A stretch of 64,000 bases of DNA from a bacterium (lineage in GTDB: Bacteria > Actinomycetota > Acidimicrobiia > Spongiisociales > ZC4RG35): positions 1 through 64,000 of the forward strand of contig JAPPFC010000035.1 of NCBI GenBank assembly GCA_028824015.1, written 5' to 3'. Both the position numbers and the translations under genes were made by a program. Below are positions 44,203-61,051 of the stretch, piece after piece. Positions within the stretch are counted from its first letter, which is position 1; every line of letters begins with the position of its first letter. The notes beneath the pieces were generated by a model. It saw only the letters and a program-made list of their open reading frames with translations. It was not told the origin of the DNA and made no database searches.

Positions 44203-45225
44203 CTAGCCGGCGTCCATGTAGGCCCGGCCGGCTTGGGCTGCGGTGTTCAGGGCGCCGCCCAGCATCGATTGAAGGGAGAGGATCCTGCGGTAATAGAGGT
44301 GGAGACCGTATTCCCAGGTGAAGCCGATCCCTCCGTGCACCTGGATGGCGGACTCGCACACCTCCCGTGCGTACGCCGGGACCGACCACAGCAGGCCCGC
44401 CAGGAACGCAGGGTCCCAGTTGCCCTCATCCATCACGAAGGCCACTCGGGCCACCGCGGAGCGCATCAACTCCAGGCGAGCCTTCATCTCCGCCAGCAGA
44501 TGCGTCACCGCTTGGAAACGGGTGAGAGGACGTCCGAACTGGTTGCGGCTCCGGGCATGGGAGACCGACAGCGACATGATCCGCTCCGCGCCGCCCACCA
44601 GGTCGGCCAGTAGGCCCGCCAGCCATCCGGCGGCCACGGCCCCGCCGTCGGCCCAGCCATCCAGCACCACCTCGGGACGAACGCCGGCGGTTGAGAGGAC
44701 GTGAACTCCTTGGGCCCGGTCCAGGGCGTCGGCCCGCTCCAGGTCCACACCGGGGTCCTCCAGGGAGATCACCGCCGTCCAGCGAGGATGGCAGAGAGCC
44801 GCCAGCCCGGCTCCCGGCGACAGCCTCACTCCCACCCCTGACACCGCCAGCATCCCGCCGGCATCCATGTCGCCCGAACCCTCGGTGACATATCCCCCTC
44901 CCCCGGCCACCTCGCCGTCGACCACCCCCACCAGACCGCTGTGACCGGCCGCGGCCAGAGCCGGCGCCAGGAGGAGCGACTCATCCAGCAACGCCACCGG
45001 CAGGAGGTGCTCGCCGGCCACCGCGCACAAATCGATGACCTCCCCGACTCCCAACCCCAGACCACCGGCCTCCTCGGGCGTCATCAGGCCGTTCCAGCCC
45101 ATGCCGACTATCTCCGCACGCGCGCTGGCGGAGAGCGACCGGTGCTCCCTGGCCCGTTCCACCGCCTCCGAGAACGGGAGCAACTCCCCCAGGGCCTGGT
45201 GGAAAGCCGCGGCGAGTTCGCTCAT
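44203..45225 (-). CDS. Acyl-CoA dehydrogenase family protein (FadE type, short)
   Basis: At 340 residues this is shorter than common acyl-CoA dehydrogenases. The N-terminal helical part is present (residues 1-100), the central beta part is compressed, and the C-terminal helices are clear: SHARSRNQFGRPLTRFQAV, then IQVHGGIGFTWEYGLHLYYRR. In actinobacteria such proteins pair with a second FadE to make alpha2-beta2 dehydrogenases acting on steroid side chains and similar CoA thioesters. The partner is directly upstream with an ATGA overlap. The substrate is unknown. Confidence 0.85.
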   Translation of the reverse strand: MSELAAAFHQALGELLPFSEAVERAREHRSLSASARAEIVGMGWNGLMTPEEAGGLGLGVGEVIDLCAVAGEHLLPVALLDESLLLAPALAAAGHSGLVGVVDGEVAGGGGYVTEGSGDMDAGGMLAVSGVGVRLSPGAGLAALCHPRWTAVISLEDPGVDLERADALDRAQGVHVLSTAGVRPEVVLDGWADGGAVAAGWLAGLLADLVGGAERIMSLSVSHARSRNQFGRPLTRFQAVTHLLAEMKARLELMRSAVARVAFVMDEGNWDPAFLAGLLWSVPAYAREVCESAIQVHGGIGFTWEYGLHLYYRRILSLQSMLGGALNTAAQAGRAYMDAG

Positions 45226-46334
45226 CTGATCCCCAGGAGGCGGCCGACGATGATGTTCTTCTGAATCTCCGACGTTCCCGAATAGATGCTCACCGAGCGG
45301 GACTCCAGGAGGTCATGCGTCCAGCCGTCGTCGGCCAGCGTCACCTCCGGTCCCAGAATCTCCGCGGCGGTCGAGAATAGGTCCTGGTAGACCTCGGCCA
45401 GATAGAGCTTGTCCACCGAGGTGGCGCCCGGGAGTAGCGTCCCCGCCTGCTGATGGGCAAGCGTCCGGTAGGCCTGGGCGGTGAGCATCTCCAGCGATGC
45501 GTGGATGCGTCCGATTCCGGCCAGCCCGGCCCGGTCGGCGCCTCCCGCAGCGCGGACCCGGTCCGCCAGTTCCGACAGCCTTCTTCGCAGCCGGATGGAA
45601 CGCTCCAGCACGAAGATTCCCCGCTCATACCCCATGGCCTTCATCGAGACCCGCCATCCCTCGTTGACGCCGCCCAGCACGTTGGCGACCGGGACTCGCA
45701 CCTCGTCGAAGAACACCTCGCTGAAGTGGGGCTCGCCGAGCATTTGGGGCAGGGGGCGGATGGTGATTCCGTCGCTCTTCATGTTGGTAATCAGCAGGGT
45801 GAGCCCCCGATGCTGCCCGGGGTCCCCGGCGGTCCGCACCAGGAGGGCGTTCCAGGTCGACAACTCGGCCCGCGAGGTCCACACCTTCTGGCCGGTGACC
45901 ACCAACTCCTCGCCGTCCATCTCCGCCCGGGTCCGGACTCCCGCCAGGTCCGAGCCGGCGTCGGGTTCGGAAAAACCCTGGCACCACAGTTCCGAGGCGT
46001 CCAGCATTCCCGGCAGGAAACGCCGCAACTGGGAGGGATCGCCCATGTCCATCAGGGTGGGACCCCACGTGTACAGGGCCAGGCGGTTGATCAGTTCCGC
46101 GGCGCCGCTCCGGGCCAGTTCCTCGGCCAGCACCGCCTCGGCGGCGAGGGACATCCCGCGCCCGCCGTACCGCACCGGCCAGGAGAGTCCCATGAAGCCG
46201 GCCTCGCACAGGGCGGCCTGCCAGCGGGTCAACGCCTCGATGCGAGCCCCGTACTCGGCGGGAGGCGGGCCCGGGTCGTGATCCGAGATCCAGGCGCGGA
46301 GTTCGGTGCGGAGATCCTCCTCCGCTCCGCCCAT
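45222..46334 (-). CDS. Acyl-CoA dehydrogenase family protein
   Basis: The 370-residue flavoenzyme has the usual order: GLSWPVRYGGRGMSLAAEAV, ELWCQGFSEPDAGSDLAGV, VVTGQKVWTSRAELSTW at the FAD site, and a C-terminal SRSVSIYSGTSEIQKNII with the GTSEIQ signature. The partner gene follows with an ATGA overlap, which supports a two-subunit enzyme. ATG 46334 was chosen as the first in-frame ATG before homology. It follows the ABC ATPase gene after 38 nt. Confidence 0.9.
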   Translation of the reverse strand: MGGAEEDLRTELRAWISDHDPGPPPAEYGARIEALTRWQAALCEAGFMGLSWPVRYGGRGMSLAAEAVLAEELARSGAAELINRLALYTWGPTLMDMGDPSQLRRFLPGMLDASELWCQGFSEPDAGSDLAGVRTRAEMDGEELVVTGQKVWTSRAELSTWNALLVRTAGDPGQHRGLTLLITNMKSDGITIRPLPQMLGEPHFSEVFFDEVRVPVANVLGGVNEGWRVSMKAMGYERGIFVLERSIRLRRRLSELADRVRAAGGADRAGLAGIGRIHASLEMLTAQAYRTLAHQQAGTLLPGATSVDKLYLAEVYQDLFSTAAEILGPEVTLADDGWTHDLLESRSVSIYSGTSEIQKNIIVGRLLGIR

Positions 46335-46372
46335 GGCAAGCGTCTCAGGAAAGGTCTGCAGAACGACCTCGA

Positions 46373-47362
46373 CTATGTCGCAGACAGCGACATTTCTTCG
46401 GACGGCGAGTGCAGCCAGCACAGCACCCGATGGCGGTCGCCCGTGGTGGCCTCGCCGGGAAACTCCTTCCGGCAGATGTCCATCACCTCCGGGCACCGGG
46501 GCGCGAAGGAACAACCCGGGGGGAGATCGATGGCGAGGGGAGGCTGCCCGCTCACCGTCAGCAGGCGCTTCTTGCGCGACTCCACGCTGGGAAGGGTGGC
46601 CAGGAGCGCCTTGGCGTAGGGATGGGCGGGCTCGTTGAAAATCTGGCGCGTGCTTCCCGTCTCGACGATCCGACCCGCGTACATCACCGCCACCCGGTCG
46701 CACAGCCGGGCGACTATTCCCAGGTCGTGGGTGACGAAGATCATCCCGAACCGGAACTCCTGCTGCAACTCGGAGAGAAGCCGCAGGTACTGGGCCTGGA
46801 CGGTTGCGTCCAGGGACGTGGTGGGCTCGTCCGCGATCAGAAGCGAAGGACGGCACGACAGGGCGATGGCGCCCGCCACCCTCTGGCGCATCCCGCCCGA
46901 CATCTGGTGCGGGTACTGCTTGAGGCGCCGCTCCGCCTGGGGGATGCCCACCTGGCTGAGGATCTCGACGACGCTGTCCCGCAGGGCCCTTCCCCGCAGG
47001 CCCTGGTGGATGCGAATCGCCTCGGCCACCTGGTTGCCCACCGTGTATCCGGGGTTCAGGGAACTGAGGGGGTCCTGGAGGATCAGGGAGATCTGGCCCC
47101 CCCTGATCTGTCTCATCTCCCGCTCGGAGAGGTCCAGCAACTCCTGTCCGTCCAGGCGGACGCTCCCTCCGACGATGCGCCCGGCAGGCGCTTCCACCAG
47201 CCGCATCAGCGCCATGCAGCTCACGCTCTTTCCCGACCCGGACTCTCCCACCAGTCCCAGCGTCTCCCCCCGGTCGAGGGAGAAACTCACCCCGTCGACC
47301 GCTTTAACCACTCCCCGACGGGTGTGGAACTGGACGCGCAGGTCTTTTACTTCCAGCAACAT
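46373..47362 (-). CDS. Oligopeptide/dipeptide-type ABC transporter ATP-binding protein (OppD/DppD)
   Basis: The 329-residue ATPase has Walker A GLVGESGSGKSVSCMAL, the MSGGMRQRVAGAIAL signature, Walker B LLIADEPTTSLDATVQ, VTHDLGIVARL, and the C-terminal OppD/DppD Cys-rich block (CSFAPRCPEVMDIC then CWLH). It lies 2 nt after the DppC-type permease gene. The partner ATPase is 3.8 kb upstream in the same direction. The binding protein that would set the substrate is not in the window. Confidence 0.92.
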   Translation of the reverse strand: MLLEVKDLRVQFHTRRGVVKAVDGVSFSLDRGETLGLVGESGSGKSVSCMALMRLVEAPAGRIVGGSVRLDGQELLDLSEREMRQIRGGQISLILQDPLSSLNPGYTVGNQVAEAIRIHQGLRGRALRDSVVEILSQVGIPQAERRLKQYPHQMSGGMRQRVAGAIALSCRPSLLIADEPTTSLDATVQAQYLRLLSELQQEFRFGMIFVTHDLGIVARLCDRVAVMYAGRIVETGSTRQIFNEPAHPYAKALLATLPSVESRKKRLLTVSGQPPLAIDLPPGCSFAPRCPEVMDICRKEFPGEATTGDRHRVLCWLHSPSEEMSLSAT

Positions 47363-57020: not shown

Positions 57021-57788
57021 TCAGTACATCACTATCCCGCCGTTGACGTTCAGGTCCTCTCCGTTGATGAACACCGCGGCCGGGCTGAGCAGGAACAACA
57101 CCGCCGAGGCGATCTCCTCGGGCCGGGCGGGCCTGCCCAACTGGGCGGTGGCCGCCGCTGCGTCGAGGTCCACTCCCTCCACCAGTTGGCCCGCCTCCTC
57201 GCCGAACCCGCTCCTCATGGGGGTGTCGACGTGTCCGGGACAGATGGAGTTGACCGCGATGTCGGGCGCTAGGGCCTTGGCCGAGGATCGGGTCAGGCTG
57301 ATCACCGCCGCCTTGGAGGAGTTGTATGGGGCGGAGTAGGGGCCGGGGACCTTCGCTGCGTTGGAGGCGATGTTGACGATCCGACCCCCTCCGGCGGCGC
57401 GCAGCAGGGGGGCGGCGTACTTGGTCATCAGATAGGTCCCGAACACGTTCACCTTAAACTCCACCTCCCAGTCCTCCCAGGTCATCTCCTCGAACAGGTA
57501 GGCCCGTCCGATCGCCGCGCAGTGAGCCAAGCCTGACAGCACTCCTCCGGTTGCCTCCGAGACCTGTCGGTAGCCTTCGGCCACCGACCCCTCGTCGGAG
57601 ATGTCGGCCACCACGGGTACCGCTGCTCCCGGTCCCTCCATGCCATCGGTGGCCTCCCGGAGACGGTCCTCAGCCAGGTCGAAACACCAGACCTTCCCTC
57701 CCTCGGCCACCAACTGCTCCGCCGTGGCCAGACCGATCCCCCGCCCTGCTCCGGTTACTACGAAATGTTTGCCTGCAAAATAGCTCAT
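57021..57788 (-). CDS. Short-chain dehydrogenase/reductase
   Basis: The 255-residue protein has the Rossmann opening VVTGAGRGIGLATAEQLV, the NNAG-like GLAHCAAIG, the active site IVNIASNAAKVPG with YNSSKAAVISL, and ICPGHVDTPM. The C-terminus ends in LNVNGGIVMY. Substrate and cofactor (NAD or NADP) are not fixed; WCFDLAEDR at the end of the second strand carries an acidic residue, favouring NAD. It is probably the first gene of the long minus-strand run. Confidence 0.93.
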   Translation of the reverse strand: MSYFAGKHFVVTGAGRGIGLATAEQLVAEGGKVWCFDLAEDRLREATDGMEGPGAAVPVVADISDEGSVAEGYRQVSEATGGVLSGLAHCAAIGRAYLFEEMTWEDWEVEFKVNVFGTYLMTKYAAPLLRAAGGGRIVNIASNAAKVPGPYSAPYNSSKAAVISLTRSSAKALAPDIAVNSICPGHVDTPMRSGFGEEAGQLVEGVDLDAAAATAQLGRPARPEEIASAVLFLLSPAAVFINGEDLNVNGGIVMY

Positions 57789-57860
57789 ACCGGCCAGACT
57801 ACCGGCCCCTCCAAGCCCTGTTGCCAGGCGCCTTCTCCGGCCGAGGCGTACCTGGTGGGT

Positions 57861-58937
57861 CTATCCGATCCGGGGATCGCCAATGTGGGAAGGAGACGGC
57901 CCGGCGGGCTTGCGGGCCAGGAAACAGTACAGGGGCGTGAAGATTCCGGTTTTCCCGCCCGCGACATAGGCGTCTGCGGTCCGGTCCAGCAGCCTTACGA
58001 CGCCCGCCGATCCCTTGGGGAACATCCTCAGCACCTCAGCCGCCTTCAACACCATGCCGATCGCTCTACGACCCACCGGAATCCGGTACAGGGCCCCGCC
58101 CCTTATCTTGTGCGGGGTCTCCATGGGCTGGTACCACGGTGTCGTCCGGCCGTTCTCCCCCACGGCCCGATCGATCCCTTCGAGGACCTCGAATCCCGCC
58201 GCCGCAAGGTCTCGGTCAACCTGACCCGTTGTGGCGATGTCCGCCAGCGCGATGCCGCGCATCAACTCCCGCTTGATGGCCCGGTGCCGTTTGTCGTCAG
58301 GATCGAAGCGGTCCGTCATGCACATTTCCTGGCCCCAGAAGAGCGCTCCGGGTTTCAGCACCCGGTATATCTCGGTGAACGCCCCCACCTTGTCCGGCGC
58401 ATGGCAAGTCGACTCGATGGCGTAACCCCGGTCGAAGGCGTCGTCCGGAACGGCGCCCATGTCCATGAAGCTGCACTCCAGGTAGTCGACCATGTGGTCG
58501 AGCCCCGCCTCTGCGTTCAACGACTTCGCCTTGTCAAGCTGGACCTTGCTGGTGTTGACCCCGACCACTCTGACGCCGGCCTCACGGACCACGCGGCGCA
58601 TCGGGCCTCCGATCCCGCAACCCACATCCACCACGTTCATGCCCTCGCGCAGGTCCAGCTTGTCGATCATCAGGCGCTGATGCCGGATCTTGGACTCCTC
58701 CAAGCTCTCATGGGGCGACAGCGGAGCGAAGTGCAGGGACTCACCCCAGCCGAACACCATGAGATCGCTGCAAAGGTCGTAGTACTCCTCGACCGTTTCG
58801 GTGTGGTCGTAGTCTTTCCCGTCGGTCTCGCTGGATGACGTTCTGTCGATCCAGCCGTCGAAGCGTTGCAACCGACGGACCACATCCGACCCGCGGTAGG
58901 CGGTCTGCAACCCCCTGGACAATTTGCGGAGTCTCAT
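57861..58937 (-). CDS. Sterol C24-methyltransferase-like (ERG6/SMT family) SAM-dependent methyltransferase
   Basis: The 358-residue protein has the sterol-methyltransferase arrangement. Residues 52-72 hold YYDLCSDLMVFGWGESLHFA (yeast Erg6 and plant SMTs have a similar YY-x-L-x-T/S-D-x-YGWG-x-SFHF). The SAM-binding VVDVGCGIGGPMRRVV follows at 101-115, then FDRGYAIESTCHAPDK at the third SMT region. DKRHRAIKRELMRGIALADI and RTTPWYQPME match the C-terminal SMT domain. This family normally alkylates C24 of the sterol side chain. No squalene- or sterol-forming enzyme is in the window. ATG 58937 shares ATGA with the stop of an upstream small frame; ATG 58967 is also open. Confidence 0.85.
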   Translation of the reverse strand: MRLRKLSRGLQTAYRGSDVVRRLQRFDGWIDRTSSSETDGKDYDHTETVEEYYDLCSDLMVFGWGESLHFAPLSPHESLEESKIRHQRLMIDKLDLREGMNVVDVGCGIGGPMRRVVREAGVRVVGVNTSKVQLDKAKSLNAEAGLDHMVDYLECSFMDMGAVPDDAFDRGYAIESTCHAPDKVGAFTEIYRVLKPGALFWGQEMCMTDRFDPDDKRHRAIKRELMRGIALADIATTGQVDRDLAAAGFEVLEGIDRAVGENGRTTPWYQPMETPHKIRGGALYRIPVGRRAIGMVLKAAEVLRMFPKGSAGVVRLLDRTADAYVAGGKTGIFTPLYCFLARKPAGPSPSHIGDPRIG

Positions 58938-59209
58938 AAACGCCGACCGCCGACCGAGAAAGGGCATCCAACCCGACGGTCGCCCCGGCTACCGGATAGC
59001 CATGATTTGGTGATCATCCCGCCTCGACTGCGGGCCGAACCGAGAGGCCCTGCAGGCATGGGAACCGACGACCCGGCAGGAGCGCCGGCCTCCCCCCGAG
59101 CATCAATGCGGGAGTTGATGGGTGAAACGACCTCCATCTGTTTGCCGTGTGGCTCCTGCCAACGGCAGGCATCATAGAAGGTCTTTCGCCAAAGAGCAGG
59201 ATCAGCCAT
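58934..59209 (-). CDS. Possible small protein translated into the SMT-like gene
   Basis: The 91-codon frame starts ATG with GAGGAG 7 nt upstream, and TACAGT lies 15-20 nt before the ATG. The first 27 residues (MADPALWRKTFYDACRWQEP then HGKQMEV) use many A/T-ending codons, unlike the neighbourhood. The rest is glycine-, serine- and arginine-rich without motif. Its stop overlaps the downstream ATG by ATGA, as most coupled genes in this window do. It may instead be a decayed gene; no family was recognised. Confidence 0.35.
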   Translation of the reverse strand: MADPALWRKTFYDACRWQEPHGKQMEVVSPINSRIDARGEAGAPAGSSVPMPAGPLGSARSRGGMITKSWLSGSRGDRRVGCPFSVGGRRL

Positions 59210-59331: not shown

Positions 59332-59805
59332 CTACCTCCGGGGTCGGCGAGGCAGCCACCGGCCCACCTGCGCTTTGTATGCCTCGTATTCGTCCCCGAA
59401 CTGCCGTTGTAGATGCGGCTCTTCATAGAGACGCACGAACAGCGAGAAGAAGACGAACAAGAACAATGCGCACCACGCCAGGATCACAGACCCGAACATG
59501 ATGGCCCACCCGGCGATCAGAGTTATCAACCCCACGTACATGGGATTGCGGGAGTACCGGTAGAGACCCCGAATGACGAGTCGCTCAGGAGCGTCGATGG
59601 GAGAGGGCGTCCCCTTCCCGAACACCACGAAGTCCCACACGCAACGCAGGTACATGGCCGATCCGATCGCCATCAGGCAGGCAGCCAGCACCAGCCGCGC
59701 CCCATCGGCCGCCTCCTGACCCCGCACCAGCAGGGCGGGCACCAGGACCCCGAACCCACCCGGCACCACCAGGGTGAACACCGCTGCCTTCACATAGAGC
59801 TTCAT
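59332..59805 (-). CDS. Isoprenylcysteine-carboxylmethyltransferase-like membrane methyltransferase
   Basis: The 157-residue protein has four hydrophobic segments and the ICMT/PEMT signature: VIRGLYRYSRNPMYVGLITL then the final EEPHLQRQFGDEYEAYKAQV. Members methylate lipids, prenylated cysteines or small compounds using SAM within the membrane. Its proximity to the SMT-like gene may be incidental. The ATG at 59805 was chosen because the longer frame would overlap ackA. Confidence 0.8.
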   Translation of the reverse strand: MKLYVKAAVFTLVVPGGFGVLVPALLVRGQEAADGARLVLAACLMAIGSAMYLRCVWDFVVFGKGTPSPIDAPERLVIRGLYRYSRNPMYVGLITLIAGWAIMFGSVILAWCALFLFVFFSLFVRLYEEPHLQRQFGDEYEAYKAQVGRWLPRRPRR

Positions 59806-59857
59806 TCGTCCCAATGTACCGCTGATGGCCCGATTCCATACCCGGAACGGCCCATCC

Positions 59858-61051
59858 TCAAACCTGGCCGCCAACCACCAACCGCACGGTGTCGCGGGCT
59901 ATCAGCGACTCCTCGTCGGTGGGGATCACCCACGCAGAGATCGGGCTCCCGGCGGCGGAGATCCGCCGTTCCCCCTCACCCCCGTTCCGGGACAGGTCCA
60001 GCGCCAGGCCCAGGTCCTCCAAGCCTTCGAGCGCCCTTCGCCGGACCTCGGGACTGTTCTCTCCGATCCCGCCGGAAAAGACCACGCCATCGCACGGCGC
60101 CGCCTGCACCAGGAACGCCCCCAGGTAGCGGCGGATGCGGTGGACGAAGACCTCCACCGCCAGGGCGGCGGAGGGATCCCCGGCGCGGGTCGCCTCGGCC
60201 AGCCTCCGGAAGTCCGACGAGATCCCGCTCAGGCCCAACAGGCCTCCCTCTCTCTCCAGGCCCCGGCGGATCTCGGATGCCGACAGGCCCGCCTCCAGGA
60301 GGTGAAACACCACGGCTGGGTCGAGGTCGCCGCTCCGGGTGCCCATCACCAACCCCTCCAGGGGGGTCATCCCCATCGAGGTGTCCACGGCCCTCCCCCG
60401 GCGGACCGCGCAGGCCGAGGCGCCCGCGCCCAGGTGGAACGTCACCAGGTTGGGGCGGGGCTTGCCCAGCACCTCGGAAGCCCGCTCCACGAGATAGCGG
60501 TGGCTGATCCCGTGAAAGCCGTAGCGGCGCACACCGTGGCGTCTCCACCAGTGCGCCGGGACCGCGTACCGGTAGGCGCGCTCTGGAAGCGTCGAGAAGA
60601 AGGCGGTGTCGAAGACCGCCACGCCGGTCGCCCCCGGCAGCAGTGCCCCCGCAGCCTCGATGCCGGCCCGGTTGGCAGGATTGTGAAGGGGCGCCAGGGA
60701 GTCCAAGCCTTCGATCGTCTCCATCACCGCGGGGTCGATGATCACCGACGCCGAGAAGCGTTCCCCGCCGTGCACCACCCGATGACCCACCCCCACGATC
60801 TCCCGGGAGTCGGCCACCGGGGGGACCGGCCCCCACTCCAGCAGCGCCTCGACTATGCGTGCCACCCCGGAGTGGTAATCGGTGACCGAGACCTCCACCG
60901 CGGTCTCCCAGTCGCCCACCCGGTGCCGGTGCCGGGCGTTCGGCGCGCCGATCCCCTCAATGATCCCCTCCGCCAGACAGTCGCCCACCTCCACTCCGTA
61001 CAGCTTGTACTTGATAGACGAACTGCCGCAGTTGATGACCAGTATGCGCAT
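59858..61051 (-). CDS. ackA: Acetate kinase
   Basis: This interconverts acetate + ATP and acetyl phosphate + ADP. The 397-residue protein starts RILVINCGSSSIKYKLYG, has GHRVVHGGERF, FDTAFFSTLPERAYRYAVP, RRYGFHGISHRYL, VTFHLGAGASACAVRRG, and VVFSGGIGENSPEVRRR near the end. No phosphotransacetylase gene is adjacent. ATG 61051 opens at the conserved strand. It may serve acetate or propionate scavenging. Confidence 0.95.
   Translation of the reverse strand: MRILVINCGSSSIKYKLYGVEVGDCLAEGIIEGIGAPNARHRHRVGDWETAVEVSVTDYHSGVARIVEALLEWGPVPPVADSREIVGVGHRVVHGGERFSASVIIDPAVMETIEGLDSLAPLHNPANRAGIEAAGALLPGATGVAVFDTAFFSTLPERAYRYAVPAHWWRRHGVRRYGFHGISHRYLVERASEVLGKPRPNLVTFHLGAGASACAVRRGRAVDTSMGMTPLEGLVMGTRSGDLDPAVVFHLLEAGLSASEIRRGLEREGGLLGLSGISSDFRRLAEATRAGDPSAALAVEVFVHRIRRYLGAFLVQAAPCDGVVFSGGIGENSPEVRRRALEGLEDLGLALDLSRNGGEGERRISAAGSPISAWVIPTDEESLIARDTVRLVVGGQV

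Follow-up and report, generated by a model that had tools for sequence, protein, structure and literature searches.

Locus and host genome

The window, a stretch of 64,000 nucleotides, is contig C36 of a 2.9-Mb genome that is 95% complete. Its minus strand carries a gene for a divergent member of the sterol methyltransferase (SMT) family, here called SMT-B (Table 1). The open reading frame is real, and its first ATG gives the longer of the two versions listed. A long plus-strand open reading frame (57765–58838) overlaps the gene and is, given the high GC content, an antisense artifact.

Table 1. Features of the SMT-B locus and of related genes. Plain coordinates are positions in the window; C and L numbers denote contigs and loci.
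Feature	Location	Strand	Basis or remark
SMT-B gene, 368 aa, divergent sterol-methyltransferase-family enzyme	57861..58967	-	Pfam, alignment, tree
SMT-B, alternative start at second ATG, 358 aa (start in the preliminary description)	57861..58937	-	ORF reading
Region I (sterol-binding), MVFGWGESLHF, residues 70–80; canonical SMTs YEYGWGxSFHF	58728..58760	-	Alignment
Region II, SAM-binding motif VDVGCGIGGP, residues 113–122	58602..58631	-	Sequence, alignment
Region III, YAIESTCHAP, residues 182–191; canonical YAIEATCHAP	58395..58424	-	Alignment
Region IV, GQEMCMTD, residues 212–219; canonical xYEWxMTD	58311..58334	-	Alignment
Sterol_MT_C domain (PF08498)	57906..58076	-	Pfam; 63 bits in genome search
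SDR-family oxidoreductase, downstream of SMT-B	57021..57788	-	Context only
PEMT/ICMT-type membrane methyltransferase, upstream of SMT-B	59332..59874	-	Context only
Block of four consecutive genes (flavoprotein, GPP34-P450 fusion, MMPL transporter, Rieske), window genome	C44:25737-33010		
GPP34 (Golgi phosphoprotein 3 type)-P450 fusion, window genome	L173:9903-11921 = C44:27302-29320		
ERG4/ERG24-family reductase paralogues, window genome	L191:4379-5515 (C10), L192:2313-3482 (C41)		
HpnC, HpnD, HpnE-like (squalene synthesis), window genome	C8:30967-34040 (L005:8767-12043)		
Second, non-B SMTs close to SMT-B	L025:4654-5712, L028:3893-4930, L033:3422-4459, L041:2835-3893		

In Pfam searches, SMT-B matched Methyltransf_11 (PF08241; 63.4 bits) followed by Sterol_MT_C (PF08498; 59.8 bits, cut-off 21.7), which is the architecture of the superfamily: a class I SAM methyltransferase domain with a C-terminal Sterol_MT_C domain. 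The preliminary description had claimed a sterol-specific motif ahead of the SAM site, a SAM motif and a C-terminal SMT block, and all three are present, as YYDLCSDLMVFGWGESLHF, VDVGCGIGGP and GGKTGIFTPLYCFLARKP, respectively. SMT-B aligns over ~330–340 amino acids with Arabidopsis SMT1 (41% identity, E 9e-86) and yeast ERG6 (34% identity, E 8e-66), giving full-length scores of 202–253 bits. The SMT1 and ERG6 references, and the SMT2 used later, were typed-in sequences. Non-SMT methyltransferases of the PDB matched mainly over the N-terminal half, the best chain scoring 81 bits over the N-terminal 150 amino acids only, and the UbiE Pfam model scored 30 bits. By these comparisons SMT-B appears closer to SMTs than to tocopherol/UbiE/RebM-type methyltransferases, and placement among general small-molecule methyltransferases, an outcome the preliminary description had raised, is disfavored by the margin between 202–253 and 81 bits. 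A fold search of the PDB with a model of SMT-B (pLDDT 83.7) was nondiscriminating: it returned generic small-molecule methyltransferases only, the nearest being natural-product enzymes such as AtmM, TleD, MitM, SpnF and RebM, with no eukaryotic SMT structure among the matches.

An RpoB tree of the window genome and 27 genomes holding related loci recovered each named phylum represented by two or more rows as a single group. The window genome fell within Actinomycetota, with Acidimicrobiia (SH-aLRT 99), so its description as an actinobacterium is correct. Rhopaloeides odorabile, Coscinoderma, Ircinia and Aplysina are among the sponges of Robbins et al. 2021 (PMC8163846), and the prefixes RHO, COS, IRC and APA of related records match sponges in that study. 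The closest relatives of the window genome are the R. odorabile (RHO) bins, with 96–97% RpoB identity. Many further record prefixes are ones we take to be sponge projects, and a few records have no assignable habitat.

SMT-B is a distinct subfamily

A scan of 84,980 species genomes found at least 553 relatives of the window protein, the best 80 of which are 60–92% identical to it. By the ranks in submitters' record titles, the relatives occur in Chloroflexota, Acidimicrobiia, Nitrospirales, Nitrospinota, Alpha-, Gamma- and Deltaproteobacteria, Gemmatimonadota, Acidobacteriota, Bacteroidota and Latescibacterota. The distribution of SMT-B spans about ten phyla of apparently sponge-associated metagenome-assembled genomes (MAGs). 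In a 58-row tree, made by a short, quick search without bootstrap, 44 rows group as a single SMT-B clade (SH-aLRT 100), the stem of which measures 1.52 changes per column. The clade is exclusively bacterial and lies apart from ERG6, SMT1, SMT2 and the canonical bacterial SMTs. SMT-B is a distinct subfamily of the sterol methyltransferase superfamily. A recent transfer from a eukaryote to a bacterium was considered and rejected, as SMT-B is a bacterial clade separate from the eukaryotic enzymes.

The subfamily is altered in regions that identify canonical SMTs. Region I, which corresponds to Tyr81–Phe91 of Erg6p, is an aromatic segment that steers methylation and deprotonation in characterized SMTs (PMC5711494). 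This sterol-contacting region, YE[YFW]GWGxSFHF in canonical enzymes, reads M-[VIQE]-[FWY]-GW-[GNS]-xSLHF in SMT-B, with the equivalent of Tyr81 replaced throughout the subfamily and that of Glu82 in nearly all members. Region III is YAIESTCHA (canonical Y[SA]IEATC), and Region IV is GQEM (canonical YE[WY]); the window protein has YAIESTCHAP and QEMCMTD in place of the YAIEATCHAP and YEW-x-x-TD of C24-SMTs. Because Region I has lost its YEYGWG core and Region IV its YEW, C24 regiochemistry cannot be assumed. The lost Tyr-Glu-Tyr segment includes aromatic residues held to stabilize cationic intermediates, so its loss would be expected to change either the substrate double bond or the end point of the reaction. 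From the alignment, the altered Region I is predicted to go with another regiochemistry or another substrate than in simple C24 methylation of desmosterol.

A second, canonical SMT is encoded on contig C13 of the window genome and groups with canonical bacterial SMTs in the 58-row tree. Elsewhere, several loci in three phyla have a second, non-B SMT within the SMT-B cluster (L025, L028, L033 and L041). Two of these second SMTs, in L025 and L041, have diverged strongly in their own right. An ordinary C24 activity, converting desmosterol or cycloartenol-type Delta24 sterols to 24-methyl(ene) sterols in the manner of ERG6 and SMT1, would fit the full-length similarity to SMTs and the conserved SAM site and C-terminal block. 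It would also fit Brown et al. 2023 (PMC10070321), in which 8 of 10 sponge-symbiont SMTs tested methylate desmosterol and whose thresholds (30% identity and 1e-50 to ERG6) would admit SMT-B. We nevertheless consider this activity unlikely, as the changes from YEY to M-V-F in Region I and from YEW to QEM in Region IV characterize the entire subfamily, and a redundant C24 step is not expected beside the C13 enzyme and the second SMTs of L028, L033 and L041. Since this genome, and some of the clusters, also supply a canonical SMT, SMT-B may act second, on already alkylated sterols.

The preliminary description of a eukaryote-like C24-methyltransferase is thus partly supported. Membership in the SMT family is confirmed. 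The phylogeny, which it had proposed as a check, sets the protein apart from eukaryotic and canonical bacterial SMTs in a bacterial-only clade, so that "eukaryote-like" does not hold, and the replacements in Regions I and IV leave C24 as a position that is not to be assumed.

Horizontal spread

Mean identity between phyla was 66.6% for SMT-B and 57.3% for RpoB, and SMT-B identity exceeded RpoB identity in 254 of 257 genome pairs; the pairs are non-independent and MAG bins may be contaminated, with the pattern covering dozens of bins. Within phyla the mean SMT-B identity was 67.2%, barely above the between-phyla value. The greater likeness of SMT-B than of RpoB across phyla indicates horizontal movement. 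AU tests rejected a single clade for all Acidimicrobiia SMT-B sequences (p-AU 0.001) and a single SMT-B clade for the window's own genus (p 0.0004). We also considered a vertically inherited actinobacterial gene and rejected it: phyla were recovered by the RpoB tree and not by the SMT-B tree, and the AU tests agree.

One member of the window's genus (locus L162, genome G263) has an SMT-B that groups with those of other phyla and not with those of its congeners, a placement that suggests replacement or repeated acquisition.

Genomic partners of SMT-B

Among 80 related loci, many of which end early at contig ends, SMT-B lies near a GPP34-cytochrome P450 fusion in 58, a KshA_C Rieske oxygenase in 49, a flavin amine-oxidase-like flavoprotein in 34, an AcrB-type RND transporter in 28, and an MMPL transporter with a sterol-sensing domain in 20. 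These partner genes recur across phyla. The window locus has no block genes, as is also the case for two loci of the same genus (L007 and L008). In the window genome, four of the genes form a block on contig C44 (Table 1), away from SMT-B, so that in this genus the fifth member of the module stands apart from the rest. This lack of adjacency counts against the function proposed below.

The closest solved relatives of the Rieske protein are 3-ketosteroid 9alpha-hydroxylases (1.5e-25). The P450 part of the fusion is about equally similar to several P450s, with sterol 14-demethylases (CYP51) among the best, and an AlphaFold model of the fusion (pLDDT 60.6) was too poor for use. A literature search returned nothing relevant on bacterial GPP34-P450 fusions. 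The fusion is kept in about ten phyla, apparently sponge-associated, and standalone GPP34 proteins occur in the same Acidimicrobiia genomes.

Immediately around SMT-B, the downstream SDR gene is kept in several sampled members of the genus (L007, L008, L174, L177 and L178) and is not found in L175 and L176. The PEMT/ICMT-type gene is kept in genus members that share the SDR, and has weak, sub-cut-off similarity to ERG4/ERG24. An acyl-CoA dehydrogenase pair lies at 44203–46856 of the window on the minus strand, the small one being nearest to IpdE2, an enzyme of steroid ring catabolism, at a score far under the curated cut-off. The preliminary description had regarded nearby FadE-type genes as suited to steroid side chains. 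That suggestion is weak, as the acyl-CoA dehydrogenases fall far under every curated NCBIfam equivalog cut-off, including that of IpdE2; as candidate partners they were rejected, with no curated steroid FadE model at cut-off and the context lost outside the genus. The four-gene block on C44, rather than the neighboring FadE genes, holds the informative partners of SMT-B.

Across 395 genomes of the class, PF08498 was found in 25, the fusion in 25, and both in 24 (Fisher p 4e-36). The same 6 of 184 genera carry SMT and fusion (p 2e-11). Single genomes depart from this pattern: in G109 the search found a canonical SMT only and no fusion, G349 carries the fusion with the Rieske and flavoprotein genes but has no SMT, and G397 has the block with a canonical SMT only. 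Within the window's genus, SMT and fusion occur together in all six members sampled; the pair is found in no other listed genus of the family. The co-occurrence could come in part from a shared sponge habitat rather than from one pathway.

These partners also bear on whether SMT-B, with its SMT fold kept, tailors some other small molecule, such as a polyketide, an alkaloid or another sponge metabolite. The natural-product methyltransferases nearest in fold would agree with such a role, as would the flavoprotein and P450 families, which are also frequent in natural-product pathways. We regard it as very unlikely, because the SMT-specific C-terminal domain is kept; because the sterol-sensing-domain transporter, KshA-type Rieske protein and ERG4/ERG24-type reductases (see below) point to steroids; and because the recurrent neighbors at the 80 loci included no conspicuous PKS, NRPS or terpene-cyclase gene.

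Sterol and squalene genes

The preliminary description had noted no sterol-synthesis gene nearby, which is correct for the window, and had proposed a search of the whole genome. In the 95% complete window genome there were no candidates for oxidosqualene cyclase (PF13243) and no match for squalene epoxidase (PF08491), the two enzymes expected of a de novo bacterial sterol pathway. A cyclase could be hidden by MAG incompleteness. The genome encodes two ERG4/ERG24-type reductases that are 74% identical (115–119 bits, cut-off 27) and lie away from the P450 block on C44 and from each other. This family was over its cut-off in 32 of 37 genomes with SMT or block and in 0 of 14 controls, a comparison that left out SMT-negative genomes of the class.

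A cyclase-family protein was found in 14 of 28 SMT-B genomes; judged by motif, squalene-hopene cyclases (DxDD) occur in 11 genomes and oxidosqualene cyclases (DCTAE) in only 4. As most SMT-B genomes lack a sterol-ring gene, SMT-B probably acts on sterols supplied by the sponge or by other members of its microbiota. For the window genome, with neither cyclase nor epoxidase, a host- or environment-derived sterol is likewise the most economical substrate, as the preliminary description had suggested.

The window genome has HpnC, HpnD and HpnE-like proteins and no squalene or oxidosqualene cyclase. Among Acidimicrobiia, the restriction of hpnCDE to sponge-associated UBA5794 was already known (PMC12008989). 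Three genomes of genus g94 (G275, G332 and G397; 93–95% complete) have SMT and the P450 block and lack squalene synthase, and SMT-B itself is present in G332 and G275. This gene set is as expected for users of imported sterols.

Since the window genome makes squalene, an endogenous linear triterpenoid is a possible substrate here, and SMT-B could methylate squalene, a derivative of it or a hopanoid, in the manner of the Botryococcus triterpene methyltransferases. The occurrence of squalene/phytoene synthase-family genes in 32 of 34 SMT-B genomes is consistent with this activity, as is the lack of a cyclase to consume squalene in the window genome. We consider it quite unlikely, given that the g94 genomes keep SMT and block without any squalene synthase, that ~77 of the 101 SQS_PSY-positive genomes of the class have no SMT, and that the Rieske partner is nearest to steroid ring oxygenases. 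Endogenous squalene as the general substrate of SMT-B is weakened by genus g94 in particular.

Proposed function

We estimate a probability of about 0.6 that SMT-B acts as a side-chain methyltransferase on a sterol acquired from the sponge or from co-symbionts rather than synthesized by the cell. Imported sterols are favored over an endogenous product by the absence of cyclases, the gene content of genus g94, the KshA-like Rieske protein, the clustered second SMTs and the ERG4/ERG24 reductases taken together, none of these being proof alone. We infer the sterol nature of the substrate, its import, the sequence of reactions and which carbon is methylated, as follows. The MMPL transporter with its sterol-sensing domain would take up or export sterols. 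The canonical SMT on C13 may perform the ordinary C24 step, and SMT-B would transfer a methyl group to a side-chain double bond. The product could be saturated by the ERG4/ERG24-type reductases, the flavoprotein or both, and the KshA-type Rieske oxygenase and GPP34-P450 fusion could oxidize it. By analogy with other SMTs, SAM would be placed beside the side-chain alkene, the methyl would pass to one alkene carbon, and the resulting cation would be discharged by deprotonation.

A more specific proposal is that SMT-B, within a horizontally shared bacterial module, alkylates sponge-derived sterols at positions other than C24, for example at C26 to give aplysterol-type or 26-methyl sterols. We think this improbable. 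If true, the precursors of the steranes that serve as the oldest animal biomarkers would be products of bacteria and not of the sponge. Alkylated sterol side chains in rocks are read as evidence of early animals and algae. Working bacterial C24-SMTs were shown in 2023, whereas C26 and similar regiochemistries are still without an enzyme, Brown et al. describing 26-SMTs as undiscovered (PMC10070321). SMT-B is tied almost one-to-one to a P450/Rieske/flavoprotein/transporter block in genomes that mostly lack sterol-ring synthesis, and offers a concrete, assayable candidate for the reworking of host sterols by sponge microbiomes.

Comparison with known systems

Eukaryotic C24/C28 SMTs (ERG6, SMT1 and SMT2; EC 2.1.1.41 and 2.1.1.143) share with SMT-B the Methyltransf_11 and Sterol_MT_C domains, the SAM motif, and the GW[GN]xSxHF, TCHAP, PWY and FTP blocks, at 34–41% identity. 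Unlike these enzymes, SMT-B has a Region I without the YE[YW] core, QEM for YEW in Region IV, and S for A in Region III. The squalene and botryococcene methyltransferases of Botryococcus (TMT1-3) are SMT relatives with a changed substrate; they are algal and act on linear triterpenes. We liken them to SMT-B by description rather than by sequence, and they have no gene block comparable to the SMT-B module. A supply of linear triterpene from the cell itself, in the form of a squalene synthase pair, is present in the window genome and absent in genus g94.

In the sponge Ircinia, clusters of ERG24, CYP51 and lanosterol synthase are common to several phyla (Kelly et al. 2022; PMC9531527). Like SMT-B, these clusters have spread horizontally across phyla in sponge microbiomes, and an SMT1/ERG6 gene often lies at one flank. 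Their core differs from that of SMT-B, which consists of the GPP34-P450 fusion, KshA-type Rieske protein, flavoprotein and RND-type transporter, and SMT-B genomes, unlike the Ircinia clusters, mostly lack an oxidosqualene cyclase. The window genome has no operon of the Ircinia type: a cyclase is missing and its ERG4/ERG24-like genes are scattered.

Functional bacterial SMTs are known, including sponge-symbiont enzymes that make 24-isopropyl sterols (PMC10070321). In that study, the SMTs are also sponge-symbiont and some, as in a chlamydial MAG, come from genomes without other sterol genes, while 13 of 24 are in sterol-synthesis clusters or in MAGs with a cyclase. The GPP34-P450 fusion and RND transporter typical of SMT-B loci go unmentioned in its text, and SMT-B proteins may be among those tested. 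Neither the SMT-B subfamily nor the GPP34-P450 module was found in the open literature searched; bacterial SMTs are known, and this subfamily with its module appears undescribed in that literature. The module is an unusual instance of a single lipid-tailoring module common to several phyla, and SMT-B is better described as a new subfamily of SMTs, belonging to a module that sponge symbionts share horizontally and that probably tailors sterols.
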